64,000 nt of DNA. Origin: Acidobacteriota bacterium (GTDB lineage Bacteria > Actinomycetota > Acidimicrobiia > Acidimicrobiales > Microtrichaceae). The notes beneath the pieces were generated by a model. The model ran no database searches. It was not told the origin of the DNA and was given only the letters and a program-made list of their open reading frames with translations. The DNA is taken from positions 1-64,000 of the forward strand of contig QEUP01000002.1 in assembly GCA_003577145.1 (NCBI GenBank), given 5' to 3'. The position numbers were made by a program, and so were the translations under genes. This document shows, piece after piece, positions 33,864 through 48,204 of the stretch; position 1 is the stretch's first letter; the number at the start of each line of letters is the position of its first letter.

Positions 33864-36523
33864 TGGCCGAACCGCCGGCGCTACCAGCCGCCGGGCTCAG
33901 CTCCGCCGAGGCGGCAGCGCGCCTGGCTGCCGGCGGCGCGAACGTGTTGCCGACGCCGCGCCGGACACCGGTGTGGCGGCGGTTCGTCGCCGAGCTGGTG
34001 CACTTCTTCGCTTTGCTGTTCTGGGTGGCGGGCGCCCTGGCGGTGATCGCCGGTCTTCCGCAGCTCGGCATCGCGGTCTTCGTGGTGGTGGTGCTGAACG
34101 GTGTGTTCGCGTTCATCCAGGAGCAGCGCGCCGAGCACGCCGCCGAGCGCCTGCGTGACCTTCTCCCCCGGCGGGCAACCGTCGTGCGCGACGGGGTGGC
34201 GGTGGAGGTGGCGGCGGATGAGCTGGTGGTCGGTGATCTCGTGGTGCTCGCCGAAGGGGATCGCGTATCGGCGGACCTGCGCCTCGATCGGGTGCACGCC
34301 CTGGCGGTGGACACCTCGACCCTCACCGGCGAGAGCGTTCCTGCGCACCCGAGCAGCGGGGAGCAGGTATTCGCCGGCTGCTTCGTGGTCGAGGGTGAGG
34401 CTCACGCGACGGTCGTCGCCACCGGGCCTGGGACCCGTCTCGCCGGGATCGCCAGGCTGACTCGCTCCCAGCGGCCTGCGCCGAGCCCTCTACGGGCGGA
34501 GCTGAACCGCGTATCACGGATCATCGCGTTCGTGGCTGTCGCGGTCGGCGTCGTGTTCTTCGGGGCGGCCCTGCTGGTCGGGACACCGGCATCGGGTGGG
34601 TTCCTCTTCGCCATCGGTGTGACAGTGGCGGTCGTACCCTGTGGGCTGCTGCCGACAGTCACGTTGTCGCTGGCCATGGGTGCCCAACGCATGGCCTCAC
34701 GCCACGCTCTGGTCCGCCACCTCGAGGCCGTGGAGACCCTCGGGTCGACCACGTTCATCTGCACGGACAAGACCGGCACGCTCACCCGCAACGAGATGGC
34801 GGCCGTGGAGGTGTGGATGCCCGGTGGGGAGGCGACGATCGACGGCAACGGCTACGAACCGTCGGCCGTTGTCGGCTGCACCCCGCTCTCGTGCCGATCA
34901 GACCTGGTAGAGCTGGCCCGTGTGGCGGCCCGCTGCTCGAACGGTCGGATCGCCTGCCATGACGGCGAATGGCTCGCCCGGGGGGACCCGATGGAGGCAG
35001 CCCTGCATGCGCTCGCCCGGCGGGTCGGCGTAGATGAGGAGGCCGATGCGGTCGAGCGTCCCGAGACGGCGAGGTTCCCCTTCGACGCCCGCCGCCGGCG
35101 GATGTCGGTGATTGCCGGGGGTTCGGTGTTGGTCAAGGGTGCACCCGACGCGGTGCTGCCGTGCTGCGACGATGTGCCGGGAGTGCACGAGGCGCTGCAC
35201 GATCTGGCGAGACGGGGCTTGAGGGTGCTGGCGATCGCGAGCCGTCCCACGGGCACCGCGCTACCCGCCTCCGCCGCCGAGGCCGAGGAAGGCTTGACCC
35301 TGCTCGGGCTGGTCGGGTTGGAGGACCCACCCCGTCGTGGCGCAGCCGAAGCCATCGCGGCATGCCGCCGCTCGGGGATTCGCGTCGCGATGGTCACCGG
35401 TGATCACCCCGAGACGGCCCGCGCGATCGCCGACGAAGTCGGCCTGGCCGGCGACGACGCCACAGTGGTGGTCGGAGCGGAGCTCCCGACCGATGACGAC
35501 GAGCTCGGAGAGCTCATCGACCGGGACGACCTCGTCGTCGCGAGGGTCTCGCCCGAGGACAAGTTGCGTATCGCCACCGTCCTCACGGGCCGGGGGCACG
35601 TCGTGGCCATGACCGGTGACGGGGTCAACGACGCCCCCGCGTTGCGGGAGGCTGCCATCGGTGTGGCCATGGGGCGTAGCGGTACCGACGTGGCACGCGA
35701 GGCCGCCGACCTGGTGCTGCTCGAAGACGACTTCGCCACCATCGTCGCGGCCATCGAGCAGGGACGCTCGACTTTCGCCAACATCCGGCGGTTCCTCACC
35801 TATCACCTCACCGACAACGTCGCCGAACTGGCACCGTTCGTGGTGTGGGCCCTGTCAGGCACCACGATCCCCTTGGCGATCGGGGTGCTGCAGGTCCTGG
35901 CCCTGGACATCGGGACCGACGTCCTGCCCGCCCTGGCACTAGGTGCCGAGCCGCCTGCGCCACGTGTGCTCGATCAGCCTCCGACAAACCGGCTCCACCT
36001 GCTCGACCGTAGCGTCTTCGTTCGCGCCTTCGGGGTGCTCGGCCCGGTGGAGGCGCTCGTGGAGCTCGCCGCGTTCATGACGACCTTCCTCGCCCTGGGG
36101 TGGCGCCCGGGCGACGACTTCCCTGATGGTGCGCCGCTGCTTGCCGCATCCGGCGCCGCCTTCACCGCCGTCGTGCTCGGTCAGGTCGCAAACGCGTTCG
36201 CCTGTCGCAGCACCACCGCATTTGCCTGGCGCCTCCCACTCGGTCGCAACCGGCTCCTACCGTTCGCGATCGCCACCGAGCTGGCGATGCTGGTCGCGTT
36301 CTTGTTCATCGGGCCGCTCGCGAGGCTCCTCGAGCAGGCACCGCCGACCGCGGTGGGCCTGTTGGTCGCGCTGCTCGCGATGCCGGCCGTGCTCGTCGCC
36401 GACACAGTGCAGAAGGCAGCCAAGCGCGTCCGCGATAGGGGGCGCTCCGCAAGGACCTGCTTCACGCGCTCGTCGAGCGCTCGTCGCGACCGGGGAGAAC
36501 TGGCTGGTCGAGCGCGAGGGTGA
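33863..36523 (+). CDS. Cation-transporting P-type ATPase with PCGLLP in place of PEGL
   Basis: 886 residues, P2/P3-like architecture: N-terminal cation ATPase domain, actuator with LTGESVPA, phosphorylation site Asp302 in CTDKTGTLT, nucleotide domain, hinge MTGDGVNDAP (about 583-592) and a six-helix C-terminal membrane block (about 660-870). In M4, where Ca/Na/K pumps read PEGL, this protein has P-C-G-L-L-P with Cys260 at the ion-binding Glu position. That departs from CPx metal pumps too. No N-terminal heavy-metal domain. The ion is therefore unknown. Its 3' end overlaps the convergent cbiO by 62 bp. Confidence 0.88.
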   Translation: MAEPPALPAAGLSSAEAAARLAAGGANVLPTPRRTPVWRRFVAELVHFFALLFWVAGALAVIAGLPQLGIAVFVVVVLNGVFAFIQEQRAEHAAERLRDLLPRRATVVRDGVAVEVAADELVVGDLVVLAEGDRVSADLRLDRVHALAVDTSTLTGESVPAHPSSGEQVFAGCFVVEGEAHATVVATGPGTRLAGIARLTRSQRPAPSPLRAELNRVSRIIAFVAVAVGVVFFGAALLVGTPASGGFLFAIGVTVAVVPCGLLPTVTLSLAMGAQRMASRHALVRHLEAVETLGSTTFICTDKTGTLTRNEMAAVEVWMPGGEATIDGNGYEPSAVVGCTPLSCRSDLVELARVAARCSNGRIACHDGEWLARGDPMEAALHALARRVGVDEEADAVERPETARFPFDARRRRMSVIAGGSVLVKGAPDAVLPCCDDVPGVHEALHDLARRGLRVLAIASRPTGTALPASAAEAEEGLTLLGLVGLEDPPRRGAAEAIAACRRSGIRVAMVTGDHPETARAIADEVGLAGDDATVVVGAELPTDDDELGELIDRDDLVVARVSPEDKLRIATVLTGRGHVVAMTGDGVNDAPALREAAIGVAMGRSGTDVAREAADLVLLEDDFATIVAAIEQGRSTFANIRRFLTYHLTDNVAELAPFVVWALSGTTIPLAIGVLQVLALDIGTDVLPALALGAEPPAPRVLDQPPTNRLHLLDRSVFVRAFGVLGPVEALVELAAFMTTFLALGWRPGDDFPDGAPLLAASGAAFTAVVLGQVANAFACRSTTAFAWRLPLGRNRLLPFAIATELAMLVAFLFIGPLARLLEQAPPTAVGLLVALLAMPAVLVADTVQKAAKRVRDRGRSARTCFTRSSSARRDRGELAGRARG

Positions 36524-37247
36524 CCGCCCGTGGCAGTTCGAGGCGGTGCGAGGCCAGCAGCTCCGCATCCGAGAGAAGGGTGGGGGTCGGGCCGTCGGCG
36601 ACGATGGTCCCGTTGTCGATGATGACTGACCGGGGACACAACTCGGCGGCGTACAGCAGGTCGTGAGTGACGACCAGGGTCGTCCGGCGCGTGTCGTCGA
36701 GGATCTCAGCGAGCTCTCGGCGGGCGAAGGGATCGAGGTTGGCCGAGGGTTCGTCGAACACGAGCATGGTCGGTTCCATGGCAAGGACGGTGGCGAGGGC
36801 GACCCGGCGGCGTTCTCCCAGGCTGAGGTGATGCGGAGCTCGTTCGGCCGCCCCGGTCATCCCGACGCTGGCGAGGGCACGCGTCACTCGGTCATCGAGG
36901 TCCGCTCCGGTGAGGCCGAGGTTGGCAGGACCGAAGGCCACGTCCTGGCGAACGGTGGGCATGAACAGCTGATCGTCGGGGTCCTGGAACACGATCCCGA
37001 CCCGTCGCCGGACCTCTGTCAGGTTTGCGGAGTCGATGGGCATCCCGTCGATCTCGACCCGGCCGGCGGTGGGGCGCAGGATCCCGTTGAGGTGGAGTAC
37101 CAGCGTTGTCTTGCCCGACCCGTTGGGCCCGAGCAGCGCGACCCGTTCGCCGACGCCGACGCTGAGGTTGACGTCCCGGAGTGCGGTGTGCCCGTCGGGG
37201 TAGTCGAACCCGACTCCCCTGAGCCGCAACGCGGGTCCGTCGCTCAT
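36462..37247 (-). CDS. cbiO: Cobalt/nickel ECF transporter ATPase
   Basis: 261-residue ABC ATPase. Walker A GPNGSGKTT (40-48), Q-loop FQDPDDQLF (the energy-coupling-factor hallmark), signature LSLGERRRVAL, Walker B MLVFDEPSANLD and switch His in VVTHDLLYA. It powers the CbiMQ membrane unit. ATG 37247 overlaps the cbiQ stop (ATGA). The GC-rich C-terminal tail overlaps the end of the P-type ATPase gene on the other strand. Confidence 0.93.
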   Translation of the reverse strand: MSDGPALRLRGVGFDYPDGHTALRDVNLSVGVGERVALLGPNGSGKTTLVLHLNGILRPTAGRVEIDGMPIDSANLTEVRRRVGIVFQDPDDQLFMPTVRQDVAFGPANLGLTGADLDDRVTRALASVGMTGAAERAPHHLSLGERRRVALATVLAMEPTMLVFDEPSANLDPFARRELAEILDDTRRTTLVVTHDLLYAAELCPRSVIIDNGTIVADGPTPTLLSDAELLASHRLELPRAVTLALDQPVLPGRDERSTSA

Positions 37248-38008
37248 CGCATGATCGCGACGAGAGCTACGGCCCAGGCGGCGCAGGGCCAGGCAGCGGC
37301 AGGGAACCAGCTGAGTGGTTCGCGGCCCGTCAATGCGGTGGGAAGCCGGCCGGTGAAGCCGCGGGCGAGCATGGCGCGATGTACCCGCTCGCCGCGTTCG
37401 AATGACCTGACGAACAGGGTGCCGGCGGTCGCGGCTACGGCGCGTCCCTGCCAGAGCCAGAGGGGATTGTCGCATCTCGAGAGCCGAGCCACCTGGAGAC
37501 GGTGCAGTTGGCCGACGATGACGTCGAGGTAGCGGATCATGAACGCAGCGATGGCCGTGATCACCCGCGGGCAGCGCAGCCGTTCGAGGCCGTGGAGAAT
37601 GTCGGGGACGCGTGTCGACCAGGCCAGCACCACTGTCGCAGCCGTCCCCAACGTGGCTTTGGCCAGGATCGACCACGCCGTCCAGCAGCCGTTGATCGAG
37701 ACGCTGACGCCGAGGATCTCACGCTCGGGCCCGCTGCCGGTGAACGGCAGGGCGAGGGCGAACACCACGAAGGGGATCTCGATCAGCAGTCGGCGACCCA
37801 GCACCTTCAACGGGAGTCGCGCTCCCACGGCCGCCACGGCGACAAGCAACGCGTAGGCGCTGAACGCCGGGACGGCCCGGGAGGGAGTCGCGACCACTGC
37901 GAGCAAGAAGCCACAGAGACACACGAGTTTGACGGTCGCGTCGATCGAGTGCACCCGCGTGTCGAGCGGTGTGTGGAGAGAATCGGTGGAATGGTGGCCG
38001 CCGCTCAT
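37244..38008 (-). CDS. cbiQ: Cobalt/nickel ECF transporter transmembrane protein
   Basis: 254 residues. Five or six hydrophobic helices with the two ATPase-coupling Ala-Arg-Gly motifs, the second seen as AMLARGFTG. VHSIDATVKL near the start and ERLRCPRVITAIAAFMIRY are typical of CbiQ/EcfT. The N-terminus is His-rich (MSGGHHSTDSLHT). ATG 38008 overlaps the PDGLE stop (ATGA); the longer frame upstream is a shadow. Confidence 0.92.
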   Translation of the reverse strand: MSGGHHSTDSLHTPLDTRVHSIDATVKLVCLCGFLLAVVATPSRAVPAFSAYALLVAVAAVGARLPLKVLGRRLLIEIPFVVFALALPFTGSGPEREILGVSVSINGCWTAWSILAKATLGTAATVVLAWSTRVPDILHGLERLRCPRVITAIAAFMIRYLDVIVGQLHRLQVARLSRCDNPLWLWQGRAVAATAGTLFVRSFERGERVHRAMLARGFTGRLPTALTGREPLSWFPAAAWPCAAWAVALVAIMR

Positions 38009-38376
38009 GTGGTGGCCGCAGGCCGGTTGCGGTTCGAGCGACAACGCGTTGAGCGGCGCGACGAACGACTGGACGAGCGGGGCGATGCGCGCGACGCCGC
38101 CCACACCAGCCCTAGGGTGATGGCGAAGGTGGTGATCACGCCGACCACCCCGGCGAGCCCGGTGGCGAGCCCAGGGTCGTCGACGCTCCTGGCGGTGTAG
38201 TCCGCGAACGGAGCACCATCCAGTGCGTGGGGTTGCTCGCCTGTGTCCAGGGCGTTGTCTGCGGCGACCTTTTCGAGCCCGTCGGGTTGGGAGCTCGCGT
38301 AACGGCTCACGACGAACGCAGAAACGAGCGCGACCGCCAACCCGGCCACCAGGAACCAGGACATGCGACGGCTCAT
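38005..38376 (-). CDS. PDGLE-domain protein, CbiN-like component
   Basis: 123 residues: an N-terminal transmembrane helix (about 7-24), then SSQPDGLEKVAAD which gives the domain its name, a periplasm-facing loop, and a second helix (about 73-93). PDGLE proteins replace or accompany CbiN next to CbiM in cobalt/nickel uptake systems and are needed for transport in studied cases. Overlaps both neighbours by ATGA. Confidence 0.88.
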   Translation of the reverse strand: MSRRMSWFLVAGLAVALVSAFVVSRYASSQPDGLEKVAADNALDTGEQPHALDGAPFADYTARSVDDPGLATGLAGVVGVITTFAITLGLVWAASRASPRSSSRSSRRSTRCRSNRNRPAATT

Positions 38377-39053
38377 GCCTGCACCGCCGACAGCTGCGCC
38401 TGCTTCTCGATACCCCTGGCTCCATGGATCAGGTCCGGTCGGGATGCCAGCACCGCCCCGACGGTCAGCGTGGTGATGAGCGCCTCACCGACGCCTATCA
38501 GGACGTGCACGCCGAGCATTGCTGCAGCGACGGTGCTCACCGGTGCAGCGCCGTTGCCGCCGATGGCGAACTCGAGCGTGAAGGCTGCGGCCGCGAGCAC
38601 CACCGACGTGAAAGCGGCGAACGCCGTGGCCGTCATCACGCCGATACGGGAGGCCGGCAACACCCGGCGCGCGAGCCAGAACAGCCCGTAACCGGCGAAG
38701 GCGGGCACAAAGGCCATGTTGATGACGTTCAGCCCCAGTGCGCTGACCCCGCCGTCGGCGAACAGCAGGCTCTGCACGACGAGCACGGTCGTGAGCGCCA
38801 ACGCTCCCAACCAGGGTCCCACGAGGACAGCCGCGAGCAGCCCGCCCATGAGGTGGCCAGAGGTTCCGCCGGCCACCGGGAAGTTCAGCATCTGTGCCGA
38901 GAAGACGAACGCCGCGACCAGCCCTGTCATCGGCGCTCGCGACTCGAGCGTGTCACGGCCGGCCTGGCGTAGCGATGCCGCCGTGGCTCCGATGGCGACG
39001 ACTCCCGCGGCGATCGAACTCTGCGCATCGAGGAACCCGTCAGGTATGTGCAT
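38373..39053 (-). CDS. cbiM: Cobalt/nickel ECF substrate-binding membrane protein
   Basis: 226 residues beginning MHIPDGFLD. The Met1-His2 N-terminus chelates the metal in CbiM/NikM, which fixes the start at ATG 39053 rather than the longer frame; AGGAGGG lies upstream. A second conserved His is in GTSGHLMGG. Six to seven helices. First gene of cbiM-PDGLE-cbiQ-cbiO. No cobalamin riboswitch is seen in the 95-bp divergent gap, so metal control is probably by the adjacent Fur-family protein. Confidence 0.93.
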   Translation of the reverse strand: MHIPDGFLDAQSSIAAGVVAIGATAASLRQAGRDTLESRAPMTGLVAAFVFSAQMLNFPVAGGTSGHLMGGLLAAVLVGPWLGALALTTVLVVQSLLFADGGVSALGLNVINMAFVPAFAGYGLFWLARRVLPASRIGVMTATAFAAFTSVVLAAAAFTLEFAIGGNGAAPVSTVAAAMLGVHVLIGVGEALITTLTVGAVLASRPDLIHGARGIEKQAQLSAVQA

Positions 39054-39148
39054 CAGACTCCCTCCTGCAAGCAAATCGCAGCAGAGTCTGCCACACCAGG
39101 GCCCGCCGGTGGGGCGGCGCAGCGGACCGGCGCGGCATACTCGTCGGC

Positions 39149-39583
39149 GTGAGCGCTACCGGCATCACCCTCGAGGATCTCGTCGCCGAGCTACGCGACC
39201 GGGGGCAGCGAGCGACCACCGCGCGGCGCGCTGTGCTCGCCGAGATCCTCGCAGCCGGTGACACCCACCTCTCAGCGGAGGACCTCGCTCGTCGGATCCA
39301 GCGACAGCACCCGGCGATCCACCTCTCGACCGTCTACCGAACGCTCGACGCCCTCACTGAAGCCGGGCTGATCGCCGTGGCACGGTTCCGTGACCAACCT
39401 GTCACCTACCACCTCGCAGTCGACGTCCATCATCACGCTCTGTGCACGAACTGCGGGGCGACCATCAACCTCCCGCCTGGGGCCCTGGACCCGCTGCGGC
39501 GCCGGCTCCGGCGTGACCACGGCTTTCGTGCCGACCCCCGTCACCTCACCATCCCGGGGGTGTGCGAACGCTGCGCGAGGTGA
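39149..39583 (+). CDS. Fur family metal-responsive regulator
   Basis: 144 residues from GTG 39149. Winged helix (about 8-80) with HLSTVYRTLDALTEAGLI; metal and dimer site residues VDVHHHALCTNCG; a second Cys pair (CERC) at the C-terminus for structural zinc. It could be Zur, Nur or Fur; divergence from a cobalt/nickel importer suggests a nickel or cobalt response. The shared upstream region is 95 bp; I found no convincing palindromic box in it. Confidence 0.88.
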   Translation: MSATGITLEDLVAELRDRGQRATTARRAVLAEILAAGDTHLSAEDLARRIQRQHPAIHLSTVYRTLDALTEAGLIAVARFRDQPVTYHLAVDVHHHALCTNCGATINLPPGALDPLRRRLRRDHGFRADPRHLTIPGVCERCAR

Positions 39584-39702: not shown

Positions 39703-39911
39703 GCGGTCTTCGCGATTCGGTCACCCAGGAGCCGATCGAGAAGCGCTTCTCCGGCCGCCCGCTCCTCGGCGGTTCAGTTCACCAGCCTCGGCTTCCCACT
39801 CACGGATGCCGAGCATGCCCTCGCGGAGGAGCAGCTTGTCCTCCGCCGCCGCTGACAGCCATGACGAGAACGACACCCCGTCCTCGTCAGCCGCCTGTTC
39901 TTCGGCGGTCA
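39699..39911 (-). pseudogene. Decayed antitoxin (VapB/RHH type), frameshifted
   Basis: Reads LTAEEQAADEDGVSFSSWL, AAAEDKLLLREG, REWEAEAGEL, then continues in another frame as EERAAGEALLDRLLGDRIAK to a stop at 39699. A single extra base near 39773 explains the frame change: without it the junction would read GELTAEERAAG, as in many intact antitoxins of this type. The DNA-binding N-terminal strand is also missing where the arsR-rhodanese gene ends. 39584-39908 therefore holds a dying toxin-antitoxin locus and no intact gene. Confidence 0.62.
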
Positions 39912-40595
39912 GGTGGTGACGGGAGCGGTCTTTGACCCGGTGTCGACGGGTAGCCCGGCTCGGCGCCATTCGGGGAATCCCTCTTCGAGGCGGCGGGCGG
40001 TGACGCCGTCGGATTCGAGGGCGCGTACGGCCTCGCAGGCGTAGGCGCAGAACGGGCCCCGGCAGTATGCGACGACCTGGGCGTCGCGGGGAACCTTGCG
40101 GAGCTGGTCGTAGAGGCGCAAGGGGTCGATGGGCACCGCGGTGGGGATGTGGCCCGCTTCGTACTCCGCGAGTGGGCGGACGTCGAGGACGACCACGTTG
40201 CCGGTGTCGAGGTCGCCGGCCAGTTCCTCGCGGGTGACCGTGGCGATGTCGTCCCGGGGACCGAGGTAGGCGTCGACGTAGTCGGAGATCCCGGCGACGT
40301 GGCGTGATGCGACATCGCGCAGAGCAGACCACAGCTCGGCGACGCGCTCGCTCGTCAGTCGGTAGTAGACGTGGTTGCCTTCCCTGCGCGTGGCGACGAG
40401 CCCCGAGCGGGCGAGGACCTGGAGGTGGTGCGAGGTGTTGGCGGTGGTCTGGCCGATCTCGCCGGCCAGCACCTCGACGGATCGCTCGCCTTGGGAGAGC
40501 ACGTCGACCAACTCGGCGCGGCGCCCGTGGCCGAGCGCCTTGGCCACCTCGGCCAACCGGTCGAACAACGCCTCCTTCGCTGCTCGGTCTGCCAT
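39909..40595 (-). CDS. ArsR family regulator fused to a rhodanese domain
   Basis: 228 residues. ArsR winged helix (about 8-92) with TTANTSHHLQVLARSGLVATRREGNHVYY, then a rhodanese domain (about 115-222) with the active-site loop YCRGPFCAYAC: Cys178, Cys183 and Cys187. The HTH part has no Cys, so classic metal sensing through CxC is unlikely; the sulfur-accepting Cys178 is the obvious sensor of persulfide or another reactive sulfur species. ATG 40595 has GAGGAGG upstream. Divergent from the methyltransferase operon across a region with two operator-like repeats. Confidence 0.9.
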   Translation of the reverse strand: MADRAAKEALFDRLAEVAKALGHGRRAELVDVLSQGERSVEVLAGEIGQTTANTSHHLQVLARSGLVATRREGNHVYYRLTSERVAELWSALRDVASRHVAGISDYVDAYLGPRDDIATVTREELAGDLDTGNVVVLDVRPLAEYEAGHIPTAVPIDPLRLYDQLRKVPRDAQVVAYCRGPFCAYACEAVRALESDGVTARRLEEGFPEWRRAGLPVDTGSKTAPVTT

Positions 40596-40658
40596 CGGCT
40601 CCTCCTCTTGGTCACCAACCGGTCGGACGCAGCCCGTGAGCCTAGCTGCTGTCATCAG

Positions 40659-40678
40659 CTATTCAAACAACTACTTGA
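40659..40678. promoter_or_regulatory. ArsR operator-like site 1
   Basis: CTATTCAAACAACTACTTGA; an imperfect TTCA-N10-TGA(A) dyad, AT-rich against the background, 63 bp from the arsR-rhodanese start. It matches site 2 at 18 of 20 positions. Confidence 0.6.
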
Positions 40679-40707
40679 CGAGTCGGCTCATTCGGGTTAG
40701 AACTCAT

Positions 40708-40727
40708 CTATTCATACAATTACTTGA
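40708..40727. promoter_or_regulatory. ArsR operator-like site 2
   Basis: CTATTCATACAATTACTTGA, followed by A, giving the dyad TTCA-N10-TGAA. It is 49 bp from site 1 and immediately upstream of the methyltransferase translation signals. Two near-identical sites in a divergent promoter fit autoregulation and control of the operon by the ArsR-rhodanese protein. Confidence 0.6.
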
Positions 40728-40733
40728 ACAAAC

Positions 40734-40779
40734 GAGGGGGAATCGTGATCGAGAAGGAGGGGGAATCGTGATCGAGAAG
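40734..40779 (+). repeat. Perfect 23-bp tandem duplication covering RBS and GTG start
   Basis: A 23-bp unit (40734-40756) containing GAGGGGG, a GTG and the next three codons is repeated exactly at 40757-40779. Since 23 is not a multiple of three, the first GTG (40745) opens a separate 8-codon frame, V-I-E-K-E-G-E-S-stop, whose TGA (40769-40771) overlaps the real GTG at 40768. Each GTG has its own ribosome site. Confidence 0.9.
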
Positions 40780-41559
40780 ACGACGACGGCAACTCGGATC
40801 ACCGTCGATCCCGAAGCGCTGCGGGCCGAGGTCCGGGTGAAGTACAGCGAGGTGGCGACCAACCCCGAGGGGCAGTTCCACTTCCACACCGGCCGCCGGC
40901 TCGCTGAGCTGCTCGACTACCCGGCGGACATCTGTGCCGCCCTCCCAGACGAGGCGTTGGCCAGCTTCGCCGGTGTGGACAATCCCTTTGGTGCGGGGCG
41001 CCTGCCGGTGGGAGGTCGCGTCGTCGACTTGGGTTCGGGCGGTGGGTTCGACTGCTTCGTGGCGGCCGAGCTGGTCGGGGCGACCGGCTCGGTGATCGGC
41101 GTGGACATGACCCCGGCCATGTTGGAACGGTCGCGACGGGTCGCAGAGCAGCTCGAGGCCGGCAACGTCGAGTTCCGGGAAGGCATCCTCGAGGCCCTGC
41201 CAGTGCCCGACGGCTGGGCCGACGTGGTGATCAGCAACGGTGTGCTCAACCTCGTGGCCGACAAGGCAAAGGTCCTGGCTGAGGCGCATCGGGTGCTGCG
41301 TCCGGGCGGCGTCCTGCAGTTCGCCGACATCGCCGTCGGGGGCGAGGTCCCCGAAGCGGCCAAGTGCGACATCGAGCTGTGGACCGACTGCATCGCCGGT
41401 GGGTTGTCGGTCGACGAGTGGTGCCGGCTCATCGAGGACGCGGGGTTCGCCGACCTCGCCGTGGGCCTGGCGACCGACACCTTCGGCGGCGCCGCCGGCG
41501 AGGGACGAGCCAGGGCCTTCGACGTCTACGCCCACACCTTCCGGGCGGGCAGGCCATGA
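40768..41559 (+). CDS. ArsM-like SAM-dependent methyltransferase
   Basis: 263 residues. Motif I VVDLGSGGGFDCF (about 90-102), GVDMTPAMLERSR, EGILEALPVPDGWADVVISNGVLNL, and HRVLRPGG. The overall layout is that of arsenite methyltransferase ArsM, but the arsenite-binding Cys of the SNCVxN motif is Gly here (SNGVLN), although a later Cys pair (AKCDIELWTDCIAGG) is kept. So the methyl acceptor may be a sulfur, selenium or tellurium compound or a thiol rather than As(III). First gene of a four-gene operon; stop overlaps the TusA-like start (ATGA). Confidence 0.82.
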   Translation: MIEKTTTATRITVDPEALRAEVRVKYSEVATNPEGQFHFHTGRRLAELLDYPADICAALPDEALASFAGVDNPFGAGRLPVGGRVVDLGSGGGFDCFVAAELVGATGSVIGVDMTPAMLERSRRVAEQLEAGNVEFREGILEALPVPDGWADVVISNGVLNLVADKAKVLAEAHRVLRPGGVLQFADIAVGGEVPEAAKCDIELWTDCIAGGLSVDEWCRLIEDAGFADLAVGLATDTFGGAAGEGRARAFDVYAHTFRAGRP

Positions 41560-41828
41560 CCGCTCCGGAACGGCTGCCGGATCGCGTGCTCGACGCGCCC
41601 GGGGTGGCGTGTGTGGACCTCACCCCGCTCATCGCCGGGGTCATGAGAGAGCTCCCACCGGGCGCGCTGCTCGAGGTTCGCAGCGACGACCCCGCTGCCC
41701 GCATGGGCATGCCGGCATGGTGCCGCCTCACCAGCAATCCGCTGCACCGCAGCGTCGAGGGACCCGATCCCGACGCCGGCCTCACATCCGACCAGACCAT
41801 CTTCTACGTCACCAAGAAGGAGCACTGA
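41556..41828 (+). CDS. TusA-like sulfur-carrier protein
   Basis: 90 residues. LDAPGVACVDLTPLIAGVM...LPPGALLEVRSDDPAARMGMPAWCRLT follows the TusA/SirA pattern (LDxxGxxCxxP, then a two-layer beta-alpha sandwich with SDDPAA and PxWC). Cys19 corresponds to the persulfide-carrying Cys; the usual CPxP is CVDL here, so the loop is divergent. Coupled by ATGA to the methyltransferase and 3 bp from the DsrE-like gene. Confidence 0.75.
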   Translation: MTAPERLPDRVLDAPGVACVDLTPLIAGVMRELPPGALLEVRSDDPAARMGMPAWCRLTSNPLHRSVEGPDPDAGLTSDQTIFYVTKKEH

Positions 41829-41831
41829 GCC

Positions 41832-42200
41832 ATGTCCACCAGCCCCACCCTTCTGATCCAGGGCACCAAGGGTGCCGAAGACGCCGAGAAAGCCAGCCTG
41901 CCGTTCATCGTCGGCAACGTCGCCGCGACCGCCGAGCAGGACGCGGTGATCTTCCTGACCTCCGAGGCCGTGCGTATGGCGACCGTCGGCTACGCCGACT
42001 CGGTCCAGTACGCGGAGAACCCGCCGACCGGCAAGATCCTGGCCGACTTCGTCGCCAACGGCGGGCGTATCTGGGCATGCGGCGCCTGCACGGGCCCGCG
42101 GGGTATCACCGCCGACGACCTTGTCGACGGGGCCAGCATCGTGACCGCGGCCAACCTCGTCGAAGCGCTCGTCGACGGAGCCTCGGCCGTCGCCTTCTGA
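41832..42200 (+). CDS. DsrE family protein
   Basis: 122 residues. DsrE/F fold with TLLIQGTKGAEDAEKASLPFIVGNVAA, AVIFLTSEAVRMAT and a C-terminal WACGACTGPRGI loop: Cys83/Cys86 occupy the position of the active Cys of DsrE-like sulfur-transfer proteins. It would exchange persulfide with the TusA-like partner directly upstream. Soluble and cytoplasmic. Confidence 0.85.
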   Translation: MSTSPTLLIQGTKGAEDAEKASLPFIVGNVAATAEQDAVIFLTSEAVRMATVGYADSVQYAENPPTGKILADFVANGGRIWACGACTGPRGITADDLVDGASIVTAANLVEALVDGASAVAF

Positions 42201-42229
42201 GCGGGGCCGACCATCCCTGGTGAATGTGA

Positions 42230-43552
42230 GTGCTCCACCGACCGGTGACGGTCACCCCACACGAACCGCCAGCCGTGGCATCGCCGCGGTTGGGGCTGCG
42301 CGAGAACCTCGGTCAGTTCCTGCTGCTGGTCGCGATCAACGCCTTGGTCGGCGGGATGATCGGCCAGGAGCGCACCGTGCTCCCGCTGCTCGCCGAGGAG
42401 ACCTTCGGTCTCGCCGCGTTCTCCTCGACCCTCACGTTCATCGTGGCGTTCGGGATCGTCAAGGCCGCCACCAACTTCTTCGCCGGCACCCTCTCGGACC
42501 GGTTCGGCCGCAAGCCGGTCCTGGTTGCCGGCTGGCTGATAGGTCTCCCGGTGCCGCTGCTGTTGATCTGGGCGCCCTCATGGGGCTGGGTGATCGCCGC
42601 CAACGTCCTGTTGGGCATCAACCAGGGGCTCACGTGGTCGACGACGGTGATCATGAAGATCGACCTCGTCGGCCCGGCCAAGCGCGGCCTGGCCATGGGC
42701 TTCAACGAAGCCGCCGGTTACGGCGCCGTCGCCCTCACCGCGCTGGCCACCGGGCTCATCGCGTCGAACTACGGGCTGCGGCCCGAGCCGTTCTACCTCG
42801 GGCTCGCCTTCGCCGCGCTGGGCCTCGGCCTCTCGACCGTGCTCGTGCGCGAGACCCACGGCCACGCCCGCCACGAAGCCGCCACCCATACCACCATCGC
42901 CGACCACCTCCGCGGCGAGCTCACCACCGGTGAGATCTTCCGGCTCACCTCGTTCCGAGAGAGGGCGCTGTCGTCGTGCAGCCAAGCCGGGCTGGTCAAC
43001 AACCTCAACGACGGCCTCGCCTGGGGCCTGTTCCCCCTCTACTTCGCCGCCGCCGGTCTCCCGGTGGCGCGTATCGGGATCCTCGCCGCGCTCTACCCGG
43101 CCGTGTGGGGCCTGGGTCAGCTCGTCACCGGTGGAGTGTCGGACCGGATAGGACGCAAGCCCCTCATCGCCGGTGGCATGTTGCTCCAGGCCGCCGCCCT
43201 CGCTCTTGTCGCCGCGACGGAAGGCTTCGCCACCTGGGCAGCCGGCGCGTTGCTGCTCGGTGTCGGCACCGCCATGGTGTACCCGACTCTGCTCGCCGCC
43301 GTCGGCGACGTCGCCCACCCCACCTGGCGGGCCCGCTCGGTCGGCGTATACCGGCTGTGGCGCGACGGGGGCTTCGCCGTCGGCGCCCTCCTCGCCGGTG
43401 TCGTCGCCGACATCCTCGGGCCCACCGCAGCGATCTATGCGGTCGCCGCCATCACCGCCGCCTCCGGGATCGTCGTCGTCGTGCGGATGTATGAGACCCA
43501 CCCCCGTCACGAACGGGTGACGATCCCTGTCGAGGCCGACTTCGAGAGCTGA
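42230..43552 (+). CDS. MFS transporter of the ArsR-rhodanese operon
   Basis: 440 residues, 12 predicted helices. DRFGRKPVLVAGW (loop 2-3 motif A) and DRIGRKPLIAGG in the second half are classical MFS motifs. It follows the DsrE gene by 29 bp and is the last gene of the operon. GTG 42230 or GTG 42245 may be the start; no strong ribosome site is visible. Context suggests export of the methylated or sulfur-bearing product, but that is inference. Confidence 0.83.
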   Translation: MLHRPVTVTPHEPPAVASPRLGLRENLGQFLLLVAINALVGGMIGQERTVLPLLAEETFGLAAFSSTLTFIVAFGIVKAATNFFAGTLSDRFGRKPVLVAGWLIGLPVPLLLIWAPSWGWVIAANVLLGINQGLTWSTTVIMKIDLVGPAKRGLAMGFNEAAGYGAVALTALATGLIASNYGLRPEPFYLGLAFAALGLGLSTVLVRETHGHARHEAATHTTIADHLRGELTTGEIFRLTSFRERALSSCSQAGLVNNLNDGLAWGLFPLYFAAAGLPVARIGILAALYPAVWGLGQLVTGGVSDRIGRKPLIAGGMLLQAAALALVAATEGFATWAAGALLLGVGTAMVYPTLLAAVGDVAHPTWRARSVGVYRLWRDGGFAVGALLAGVVADILGPTAAIYAVAAITAASGIVVVVRMYETHPRHERVTIPVEADFES

Positions 43553-46482: not shown

Positions 46483-48204
46483 GTGGTCCCCTGGGGGCAG
46501 GAAGTGGAGGAGCCGCTGTTGTCCGACCACCTGATCGCCCCGCACGGTGGCGAGCTGGTCGATCTCTCAACGAGCGCCGCGCGGGCCGCCGAGCTACGCG
46601 AGGCATCACGCGACTGGCCTTCGTGGGATTTGACGCCCCGGCAGCTCGTCGAGCTCGAGCTGCTGGCCGGCGGCGCCTACTCGCCTCTCTGCGGTTACCT
46701 GAGCGAGTCGGACTACCTGGCGGTTCGCGACAGGATGCGCCTGGTCGACGGGACCCTGTGGCCGTTGCCGACGTCGCTCGACGTCACCGAGGAGATGGCC
46801 GAGGTGCTCGAGCCGGGCATGCGCCTGGCGCTGCGTGACTCCGAGGGTGTGATGTTGGGGTGTCTCGACATCGCAGACATCTACCAACCCGACCTCTTGG
46901 CCGAGGCCGATCTGTTGGCCCGACTTCCCGGTGACGGGACATCAGGTCGGCCACCGGCTGCACGCCGTCGGCCGGTCTACCTCGGTGGCGCCATCGAATC
47001 CGTGCAGCCGCCCGTCCACTACGACTTCGGTGATCTGCGGCACACACCCGCCGAGCTGCGACGCGAGCTAGCCAAGCTCGGATGGCGCCGCGTCGTGGCC
47101 TACCCCACCCACAGCCCCATGCACCGTGTCCATTTCGAGCAGACACTGCGAGCGGTCAAGGAACTGGAGGCCGGCCTCTTGATCCATTCCCTCGTCGGTC
47201 CCGAGGAGGACAGCTACATCGATCACTTCACACGGGTCAGGTGTCACCGGGCGATCGTGAAGCGCTATCCACCCGGTACTGCGACGCTCTCGGTTCTCCC
47301 GGTTGCCGCCACATCCGGCGGACCACGCGAGCTGCTGTTGAGCGCCCTCGTTCACAGGAACTTCGGCGTCACCGACGTGATGGTCGGTCAGGAGGTCGGA
47401 AACCCAGCCGTTGCGAACGAGTCGATCGAAGCTGTCGGGAGTTACATGGACGAAGCCGGTGTTGCGCTGGTGAGCAGTGAGACGCTGGTCTACCTGCCTG
47501 ACGACGACCGCTTCGTGGCCGGGGAGCAGGCCCCTTTACGTGCCAGGGTCCTGGAGATCGACGAGGTCGAGCTCCGGCAGCGCCTGGTAGAGGGTCGCCG
47601 GCTGCCCGCCTGGTTCACGTTCCCGGAGGTAGCCGACATCCTCGAACCGGCGTTCCCGCCCCGGTCGCGCCAGGGGTTCACGGTGTTCTTCACCGGGTTG
47701 AGCGGCTCGGGCAAGTCGACCATCGCCAACGCCTTGAAGGTGCGGCTGCTCGAGATGGGGGGGAGGTCGGTCACGCTCCTCGACGGCGACCTGGTGCGCA
47801 AGCACCTGTCGTCCGAACTGGGTTTCTCCCGTGAGCACCGCGACCTCAACATCCGCCGTATCGGTTTCGTCGCCTCGGAGATCACCAAGAACGGCGGGGT
47901 GGCCATCTGCGCTCCCATCGCCCCCTATGACGCGACCCGCAAGGACGTCCGTAGCATGATCAGCCGCGCCGGCGGTTTCGTCCTCGTTCACGTGGCGACG
48001 CCCCTGGACATCTGCGAGCAGCGTGATCGCAAGGGCCTGTATGCCAAGGCTCGCGAAGGTGTCATCAAGGAGTTCACCGGTATCAGCGACCCCTACGAGG
48101 AGCCCGCGGACGCCGAGATGGTGATGGACACCAGCGAGACGACGCCCGAGGAGGCAGCCCAAGAGGTGATCCTGCACCTCGAACGGGAGGGCTACCTCGG
48201 TTGA
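46483..48204 (+). CDS. ATP-sulfurylase-like/adenylylsulfate kinase fusion with degenerate sulfurylase motifs
   Basis: 573 residues. N-terminal part (about 1-385) has the PUA-like and catalytic layout of ATP sulfurylase, but the active motif QxRNPxHxxH reads YPTHSPMHRVH (207-217): Gln-x-Arg-Asn is lost while the two His are kept, and GRDHxG appears as GQEVGN (302-307). The C-terminal APS kinase domain (about 395-573) is intact: P-loop GLSGSGKST, DGDLVRKHLSSELGFSREHRDLNIRR, GVAICAPIAPYD. So APS phosphorylation to PAPS is likely, sulfurylase activity doubtful. Start GTG 46483 follows GGAGGGG closely; GTG 46504 is an alternative. Confidence 0.85.
   Translation: MVPWGQEVEEPLLSDHLIAPHGGELVDLSTSAARAAELREASRDWPSWDLTPRQLVELELLAGGAYSPLCGYLSESDYLAVRDRMRLVDGTLWPLPTSLDVTEEMAEVLEPGMRLALRDSEGVMLGCLDIADIYQPDLLAEADLLARLPGDGTSGRPPAARRRPVYLGGAIESVQPPVHYDFGDLRHTPAELRRELAKLGWRRVVAYPTHSPMHRVHFEQTLRAVKELEAGLLIHSLVGPEEDSYIDHFTRVRCHRAIVKRYPPGTATLSVLPVAATSGGPRELLLSALVHRNFGVTDVMVGQEVGNPAVANESIEAVGSYMDEAGVALVSSETLVYLPDDDRFVAGEQAPLRARVLEIDEVELRQRLVEGRRLPAWFTFPEVADILEPAFPPRSRQGFTVFFTGLSGSGKSTIANALKVRLLEMGGRSVTLLDGDLVRKHLSSELGFSREHRDLNIRRIGFVASEITKNGGVAICAPIAPYDATRKDVRSMISRAGGFVLVHVATPLDICEQRDRKGLYAKAREGVIKEFTGISDPYEEPADAEMVMDTSETTPEEAAQEVILHLEREGYLG

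Follow-up and report, generated by a model that had tools for sequence, protein, structure and literature searches.

What would a bacterium gain from an operon in which a rhodanese-fused ArsR regulator faces genes for a methyltransferase (MT), a TusA-like protein, a DsrE-like protein, and an MFS transporter? This question was raised by a stretch of 64,000 nucleotides (the window) from an Acidobacteriota bacterium that GTDB places in the Microtrichaceae (Actinomycetota, Acidimicrobiia, Acidimicrobiales; GenBank assembly GCA_003577145.1, contig QEUP01000002.1, positions 1 to 64,000). The window is part of contig C33 in a host genome of 4.05 Mb and 68 contigs. A sequence-only reading had described five genes at 39909-43552, with the ArsR-rhodanese gene divergent from the other four, and had proposed that they sense persulfide or a related chalcogen, relay it, methylate it, and export it. 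Open reading frames (ORFs) and profile matches agreed with the gene description. Our preferred reading, to which we assign a probability of about 40%, is that the whole is a sulfane-sulfur-responsive disposal operon, with TusA and DsrE supplying a methyltransferase that acts on sulfur.

A Predicted ArsM Fold That Keeps One Arsenite Ligand

The fold of the methyltransferase is predicted to be that of ArsM. Its AlphaFold2 model (pLDDT 92) matched the ArsM structure 4fr0 with Z 26.9, a root mean square deviation of 2.4, and 36% identity over 215 aligned residues. The protein was then compared with CmArsM, whose three As(III)-binding cysteines are C72, C174, and C224 (C72 and C224 are numbered after PDB titles). 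C72 corresponds to Val and C174 to Gly, within SNGVLN, while C224 is kept as Cys208. The sequence-only reading had described an ArsM-like enzyme that lacks the arsenite cysteine at SNGVLN; the equivalents of C72 and C174 are indeed lost, but that of C224 is present, and SNG is typical of the family. Gly158 and Cys208 (Cys or selenocysteine, Sec) were invariant in 44 aligned relatives, with no further invariant Cys. The loss of two arsenite ligands and the invariance of the third speak for the sulfur reading.

A genome scan for MT relatives gave at least 580 confirmed places, of which the best 80 were taken. SNG was found in 75 of these 80 loci and SNC in 2 (L117 and L123), while 3 (L056, L065, and L093) were unread. 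A sequence error or a lost Sec codon at the glycine was thus ruled out. The best named NCBIfam profiles for the MT were those of ArsM, although PRK11873 (215.4 bits) stayed under its curated cut-off of 263, and the cut-offs of all ArsM-type selenoprotein models were far above the scores obtained here. All three cysteines are kept in a homologue of SNC type that the host genome also encodes.

A Methyltransferase Family with Mostly Selenocysteine Members

The codon equivalent to position 208 was TGA in 42 of the 80 related loci, TAG in 1, Cys in 36, and unreadable in 1. The TGA fell at the WT[x][C/U]IAGG position in the TGA genes read. Nine of 99 related genomes had a homologue with at least 56% identity; four of these were Cys forms and five had one in-frame TGA. 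We defined the type-1 family by SNG plus W-T-x-[C/U]-I-A-G with Sec or Cys, and a second subfamily, likewise with SNG, by WA[AS]CIGG. A tree of 93 rows was built, leaving out L040 (partial) and L093 (frame-shifted), and its type-1 clade contained 57 rows (47 Sec and 10 Cys); L042, labelled C1 by its pattern, grouped with the second subfamily. Because the window clade consists of eight Cys rows (98/96) amid Sec rows and the two other Cys rows lie elsewhere, repeated exchange of Sec for Cys is the simplest reading of the tree.

SelB exceeded its curated cut-off in all five Sec-form genomes, in one of five Cys-form genomes (the host of the window), and in one of two second-subfamily genomes. Seven Sec-form genomes were searched for tRNA-Sec, whose anticodon was TCA in the six TGA genomes and CTA in the TAG genome. 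The host genome has tRNA-Sec(TCA) despite its Cys-form MT. Rfam matches in the Cys-form L048 and L050 were called tRNA-Ser by ARAGORN, and the search of the Cys-form L069 gave no match over the cut-off. That the TGA codons are errors or pseudogenes was ruled out by their single column, the many phyla, SelB, the fitting tRNA-Sec, and the TAG/CTA pair. This pair was found in Modestobacter sp. DSM 44400: the Sec codon of its MT gene (L060, 9001-9759) is TAG, and a tRNA-Sec of the same genome (L204, 1501-1596; Rfam 66.9 bits), named tRNA-Pyl by ARAGORN, has the anticodon CTA. The two genes suggest that UAG is read as Sec in Modestobacter, as has reportedly been found in its bacterial family. In genome G015, one contig carries both SelB and, about 4 kb away, a Sec-form MT (L039, 6903-7679). 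An ArsM entry among selenoproteins reportedly goes back to Fomenko and co-workers; it is given as experimentally verified in Table 1 of PMC9312934.

A Putative Rhodanese-ArsR Sensor and Its Probable Operator

The regulator combines a helix-turn-helix (HTH) part with a rhodanese part that has an active-site Cys, and so presents the features of an ArsR-type rhodanese fusion regulator. Its only cysteines are C178, C183, and C187, with none in the HTH part. The statement that they all sit in the rhodanese loop was correct for C178 and C183 (within CRGPFC) and wrong for C187, just past the loop. The two loop cysteines were kept in 37 of 37 homologues (at least 240 bits, from the fetched loci), which makes sulfane-sulfur-type sensing by this protein plausible, as had been supposed. 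A metal-sensing ArsR is not favoured, since the cysteines are confined to the rhodanese part, despite a pass of the NCBIfam profile HTH_metalloreg (74.8 bits against a cut-off of 55). The NCBIfam profile BigR was not reached (55.8 bits against 155).

The dyad TCAA-N8-TTGA was found upstream of 22 of the 37 rhodanese-ArsR genes, against 0.1 expected from shuffles of single bases, not dinucleotides. The 1.586 Mb of loci held 57 such sites, and those within 350 bp of gene starts belonged to the sensor (29), type-1 MT (10), and metallo-beta-lactamase/rhodanese (MBL-rhodanese; 8) genes, where one site may be counted for two genes. Two of the 11 sites in the host genome lie at its two rhodanese-ArsR genes (P ~8e-7 under a uniform model). 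Both dyad copies of the window are carried by a direct repeat (40655-40678 and 40704-40727, 88% identical). The shared dyad in the divergent promoter supports co-regulation of sensor and operon, in line with the earlier view that the regulator controls the genes it faces.

Gene Association across Genomes

We clustered the ORFs that flank the MT in 92 loci and afterwards annotated 117 loci with our own profiles. The 59 type-1 loci, some of which are short contigs or come from related genomes, had rhodanese-ArsR (15), MFS (12), DsrE (12), MBL-rhodanese (9), and TusA (5) genes at up to 7.5 kb from the MT. A rough chance model, which treated the loci as independent and allowed each genome 1-3 copies, was computed for four genes, TusA not among them, and predicted 0.27 sensor genes against the 15/59 seen and fewer than 1 each for MFS, DsrE, and MBL-rhodanese. 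The 31 second-subfamily loci had rhodanese-ArsR in 4, MFS in 5, DsrE in 8, MBL-rhodanese in 6, and TusA in 1. The MBL-rhodanese protein often stands beside sensor and MFS, a further point in favour of the sulfur reading. Neither this company, nor the mostly Sec nature of the MT family, nor the many MT loci without any partner type had been noticed in the sequence-only reading.

The MT-TusA-DsrE triad occurred in five loci, namely the window, L065 (Acidimicrobiales), L073 (Chloroflexota), L080 (Anaerolineae), and L110 (Bacteroidota), and hence in Actinomycetota, Chloroflexota, and Bacteroidota. In L080, MT and TusA are fused in one frame of 359 amino acids (TusA 29.7 bits, cut-off 28.6). The full five-gene set recurred outside the window in L073 only, together with MBL-rhodanese. 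The link of the MT with both carriers that the sequence-only reading had proposed is supported by the triad in other phyla and the fusion. The refuting outcome that it had named, no conserved linkage of the five genes, did not arise, given L073 and the common partial sets. Judging from the sequences, the gene association is real but modular. Sensor, MBL-rhodanese, and MFS genes stand together with no MT in view in L178 and L179, so the MT appears to have been added to a wider regulon. MTs of this kind also have sigma factors or OsmC-type genes as neighbours, which indicates that this operon is not the only setting of the MT family.

Several neighbours were seen repeatedly. A DUF4395 membrane protein adjoins the MT in L032, L033, L048 (9683-10417, Pfam), L100, L116, L120, and L127, and at the loci most closely related to that of the window it occupies the place of TusA and DsrE. 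In L094, L098, L101, L103, L105, L121, and L124, the second-subfamily MT has a sigma factor and another methyltransferase as neighbours, a separate conserved context. A different, second S-adenosylmethionine (SAM) methyltransferase adjoins rhodanese-ArsR in L037 (7869-8642, Pfam), L062 (1749-2519), and L073 (3730-4503).

Putative Sulfur Carriers and Proposed Mechanism

The DsrE-like protein was above the Pfam cut-off of 22.7, and its CxxC (C83/C86) was present in 23 of 23 homologues. C19 of the TusA-like protein was kept in 8 of 8 homologues and C56 in 7 of 8, and the L110 homologue passed Pfam TusA (43.6 bits). The MFS protein had only weak relatives of solved structure (E up to 1e-4), the drug exporter NorA being the top one.

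We propose that the rhodanese-ArsR protein would bind TCAA-N8-TTGA between the divergent genes and repress them. Sulfane sulfur, as persulfide or polysulfide, would land on C178, with C183 resolving, and release the repressor; derepression of this kind is suggested because BigR is analogously inactivated by H2S and polysulfides. TusA (C19) and DsrE (C83/C86) would take up sulfane sulfur and pass it on. The chalcogen would then reach Cys208 of the MT, which is Sec in most close relatives, for methylation by SAM to a methylated sulfur compound such as methanethiol. In the least certain step, the MFS protein would export this product or a related sulfur compound. The sequences themselves show the five genes, their conserved thiols and recurrent linkage, one fusion of MT and TusA, the shared dyad, the exchange of Sec and Cys, and a predicted ArsM fold; the inducer, the repression, the relay into the MT, sulfur methylation, and the transported compound are inferred. 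The conserved TusA and DsrE thiols, taken with the fusion, point to sulfane sulfur being handed over to Cys208, and a single soft nucleophile, often a selenolate, would suit one chalcogen atom better than three-coordinate arsenic. That the carriers bring sulfane sulfur to a lone thiolate or selenolate, where it is methylated under rhodanese-ArsR control, and that this makes up a pathway so far undescribed, we put forward somewhat more tentatively than the disposal operon as such.

Several observations weigh against this reading. None of the five partner types was found within 7.5 kb in 35 of the 59 type-1 loci (57 of all 92 MT loci), although 14 of these 35 had less than 5 kb of flanking DNA to one side. 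The sensor gene was not seen in the triads L065, L080, and L110, and no exact dyad was found near their MT genes. In L033 and L048, which are closest to the window locus, sensor and MT are present, with the DUF4395 protein in place of DsrE. The dyad was not enriched over the whole host genome (11 sites against 16 for a reversed control pattern). The TusA-like protein, at 28.0 bits, was just below the Pfam cut-off of 28.6, and its CPxP motif is replaced by CVDL, although Cys19 is kept. No MBL-rhodanese gene was found in the window, and the nearest homologue in the host genome, at 34% identity, lies on a different contig.

Alternative Explanations

The absence of sulfur carriers from many MT loci would be expected if the MT were a small-molecule thiol S-methyltransferase that caps organic thiols or persulfides, while TusA and DsrE clear persulfide in parallel. 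H2S and methanethiol S-methyltransferases also take ethanethiol and propanethiol, with no carrier described in the available text (PMC12904073). The MT-TusA fusion, the triad in three phyla, and one invariant Cys/Sec in the MT speak against this explanation, and we consider it unlikely, though worth keeping in mind. Methylation of selenium or tellurium for volatilisation, with TusA and DsrE carrying selenium instead of sulfur, follows the same soft-chalcogen logic; SelB and tRNA-Sec in the host genome and the short distance from MT to SelB in G015 fit it. However, Cys-form MTs were also seen where SelB did not exceed the cut-off (genomes G002, G010, G021, and G075), and the MBL-rhodanese proteins that often accompany sensor and MFS are sulfur-related in appearance. 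This possibility appears slightly less probable again.

An operon for arsenic methylation, acting on methylarsenite or thioarsenic under an unusual regulator, has the closest fold and the best named profiles on its side, and the ArsM selenoprotein in Table 1 of PMC9312934 agrees with it. Against this stand the lack of two of the three As(III) ligands in the family, the missed PRK11873 cut-off, the HTH part without Cys, and the homologue with all three cysteines elsewhere in the host genome. No arsenic transporter was recognised by eye among the 45 ORF clusters listed, no systematic search of arsenic neighbourhoods being made. We judge arsenic methylation to be quite improbable.

Gene Layout and Neighbours

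The features of the locus are given in the table. MT and TusA genes overlap, TusA and DsrE genes are 3 nucleotides apart, and DsrE and MFS genes 29, spacings that are compatible with one transcript. The start codon of the MT gene is GTG at 40768, which corrects an earlier start. The MT gene has its ribosome-binding site and GTG start in duplicate through a 23-nucleotide tandem duplication (40731-40776), whose first copy is a potential leader of eight codons with a stop that overlaps the MT start. Just upstream (36462-39583), a cobalt/nickel-type ECF transporter (ABC, CbiQ, and CbiM by Pfam) faces a Fur-family regulator, and about 3 kb past the downstream end of the operon is a gene for a bifunctional ATP sulfurylase/APS kinase (46483-48204).

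Table. Features of the rhodanese-ArsR/methyltransferase locus, in window positions
Feature	Position	Strand	Profile match or remark
ArsR-rhodanese regulator, 228 amino acids	39909..40595	-	Pfam HTH_5 28.2 bits, rhodanese 59.1 bits
Probable operator TCAAACAACTACTTGA (TCAA-N8-TTGA)	40663..40678	.	Dyad also upstream of other rhodanese-ArsR genes
Imperfect second dyad TCAT-N8-TTGA	40712..40727	.	49 nucleotides on, MT-gene side
SAM methyltransferase with predicted ArsM fold (MT), 263 amino acids, Gly158 (SNG), Cys208	40768..41559	+	Pfam Methyltransf_31 110.2 bits
TusA-like carrier, 90 amino acids, C19 and C56	41556..41828	+	Pfam TusA 28.0 bits
DsrE-like carrier, 122 amino acids, C83 and C86	41832..42200	+	Pfam DsrE 44.6 bits
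MFS transporter, 440 amino acids	42230..43552	+	Pfam MFS_1 155.8 bits

Implications and Comparison with Known Systems

If the sulfur reading is true, a function would be assigned to an MT family that profiles now name arsenite methyltransferase. Since non-arsenic MTs would then bear the name ArsM, environmental arsM counts may include enzymes inactive on arsenic. Sulfur-carrier relays would be tied to the formation of volatile sulfur, and selenocysteine in a methyltransferase would find a rationale. The family was found in Actinomycetota, Chloroflexota, Pseudomonadota, Acidobacteriota, and other groups, and on the more tentative relay reading a widespread and largely unnamed selenoprotein family would be a sulfane-sulfur methyltransferase and a further biological source of methanethiol-type volatiles. 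If methylation fed by a relay were demonstrated, it would be new in kind. The system can be tested in laboratory Escherichia coli with no need to engineer selenium insertion, owing to the shared dyad, the fusion, and a natural Cys form.

TusA/DsrE sulfur relays serve sulfur oxidisers and tRNA thiolation. The window operon resembles them in its two small carriers with adjacent genes and conserved cysteines, and differs in that the adjoining, once fused, partner is a methyltransferase. It resembles ArsM/AS3MT in the fold and best NCBIfam profiles of the MT, but C72, C174, and C224 correspond to V, G, and C, position 208 is Sec in most close relatives, and the neighbours are of sulfur type. The sequence-only reading did not recognise the combination as a described pathway, and among the papers listed by full-text searches of open-licence PMC literature, no title or displayed abstract described the gene set or a rhodanese-fused ArsR sensor.

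The bigR operon encodes BigR, an ArsR-type repressor inactivated by H2S and polysulfides, the sulfurtransferase/dioxygenase Blh, and a TauE-type sulfite transporter, according to the available text of PMC5823870. Both operons join an ArsR-type repressor with two reactive cysteines to sulfur enzymes and a transporter (PMC5823870), and relatives of the window operon carry an MBL-rhodanese gene comparable to Blh. In BigR, however, Cys42 and Cys108 belong to a winged-helix protein, whereas the thiols of the window regulator lie in the fused rhodanese domain, and the window has TusA, DsrE, a methyltransferase, and an MFS transporter but no dioxygenase. By analogy, the operon would behave like a bigR-type regulon while standing outside BigR membership. 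H2S and methanethiol are substrates of small SAM methyltransferases found in Actinomycetota, and both compounds induce the genes for these enzymes, as they do the MddM genes (PMC12904073). The activity proposed for the MT, SAM-dependent methylation of reduced sulfur, is like that of MddM1/MddM2, MddH, and MddA (PMC12904073), for which that source, in the text available, describes no carrier proteins, unlike the window operon. MddM1/M2 are of 204-210 amino acids and UbiG/UbiE-type, and the window MT is of 263 and ArsM-type, a comparison of sizes and labels only (PMC12904073). On this analogy, the window MT may have the same function as MddM1/MddM2.

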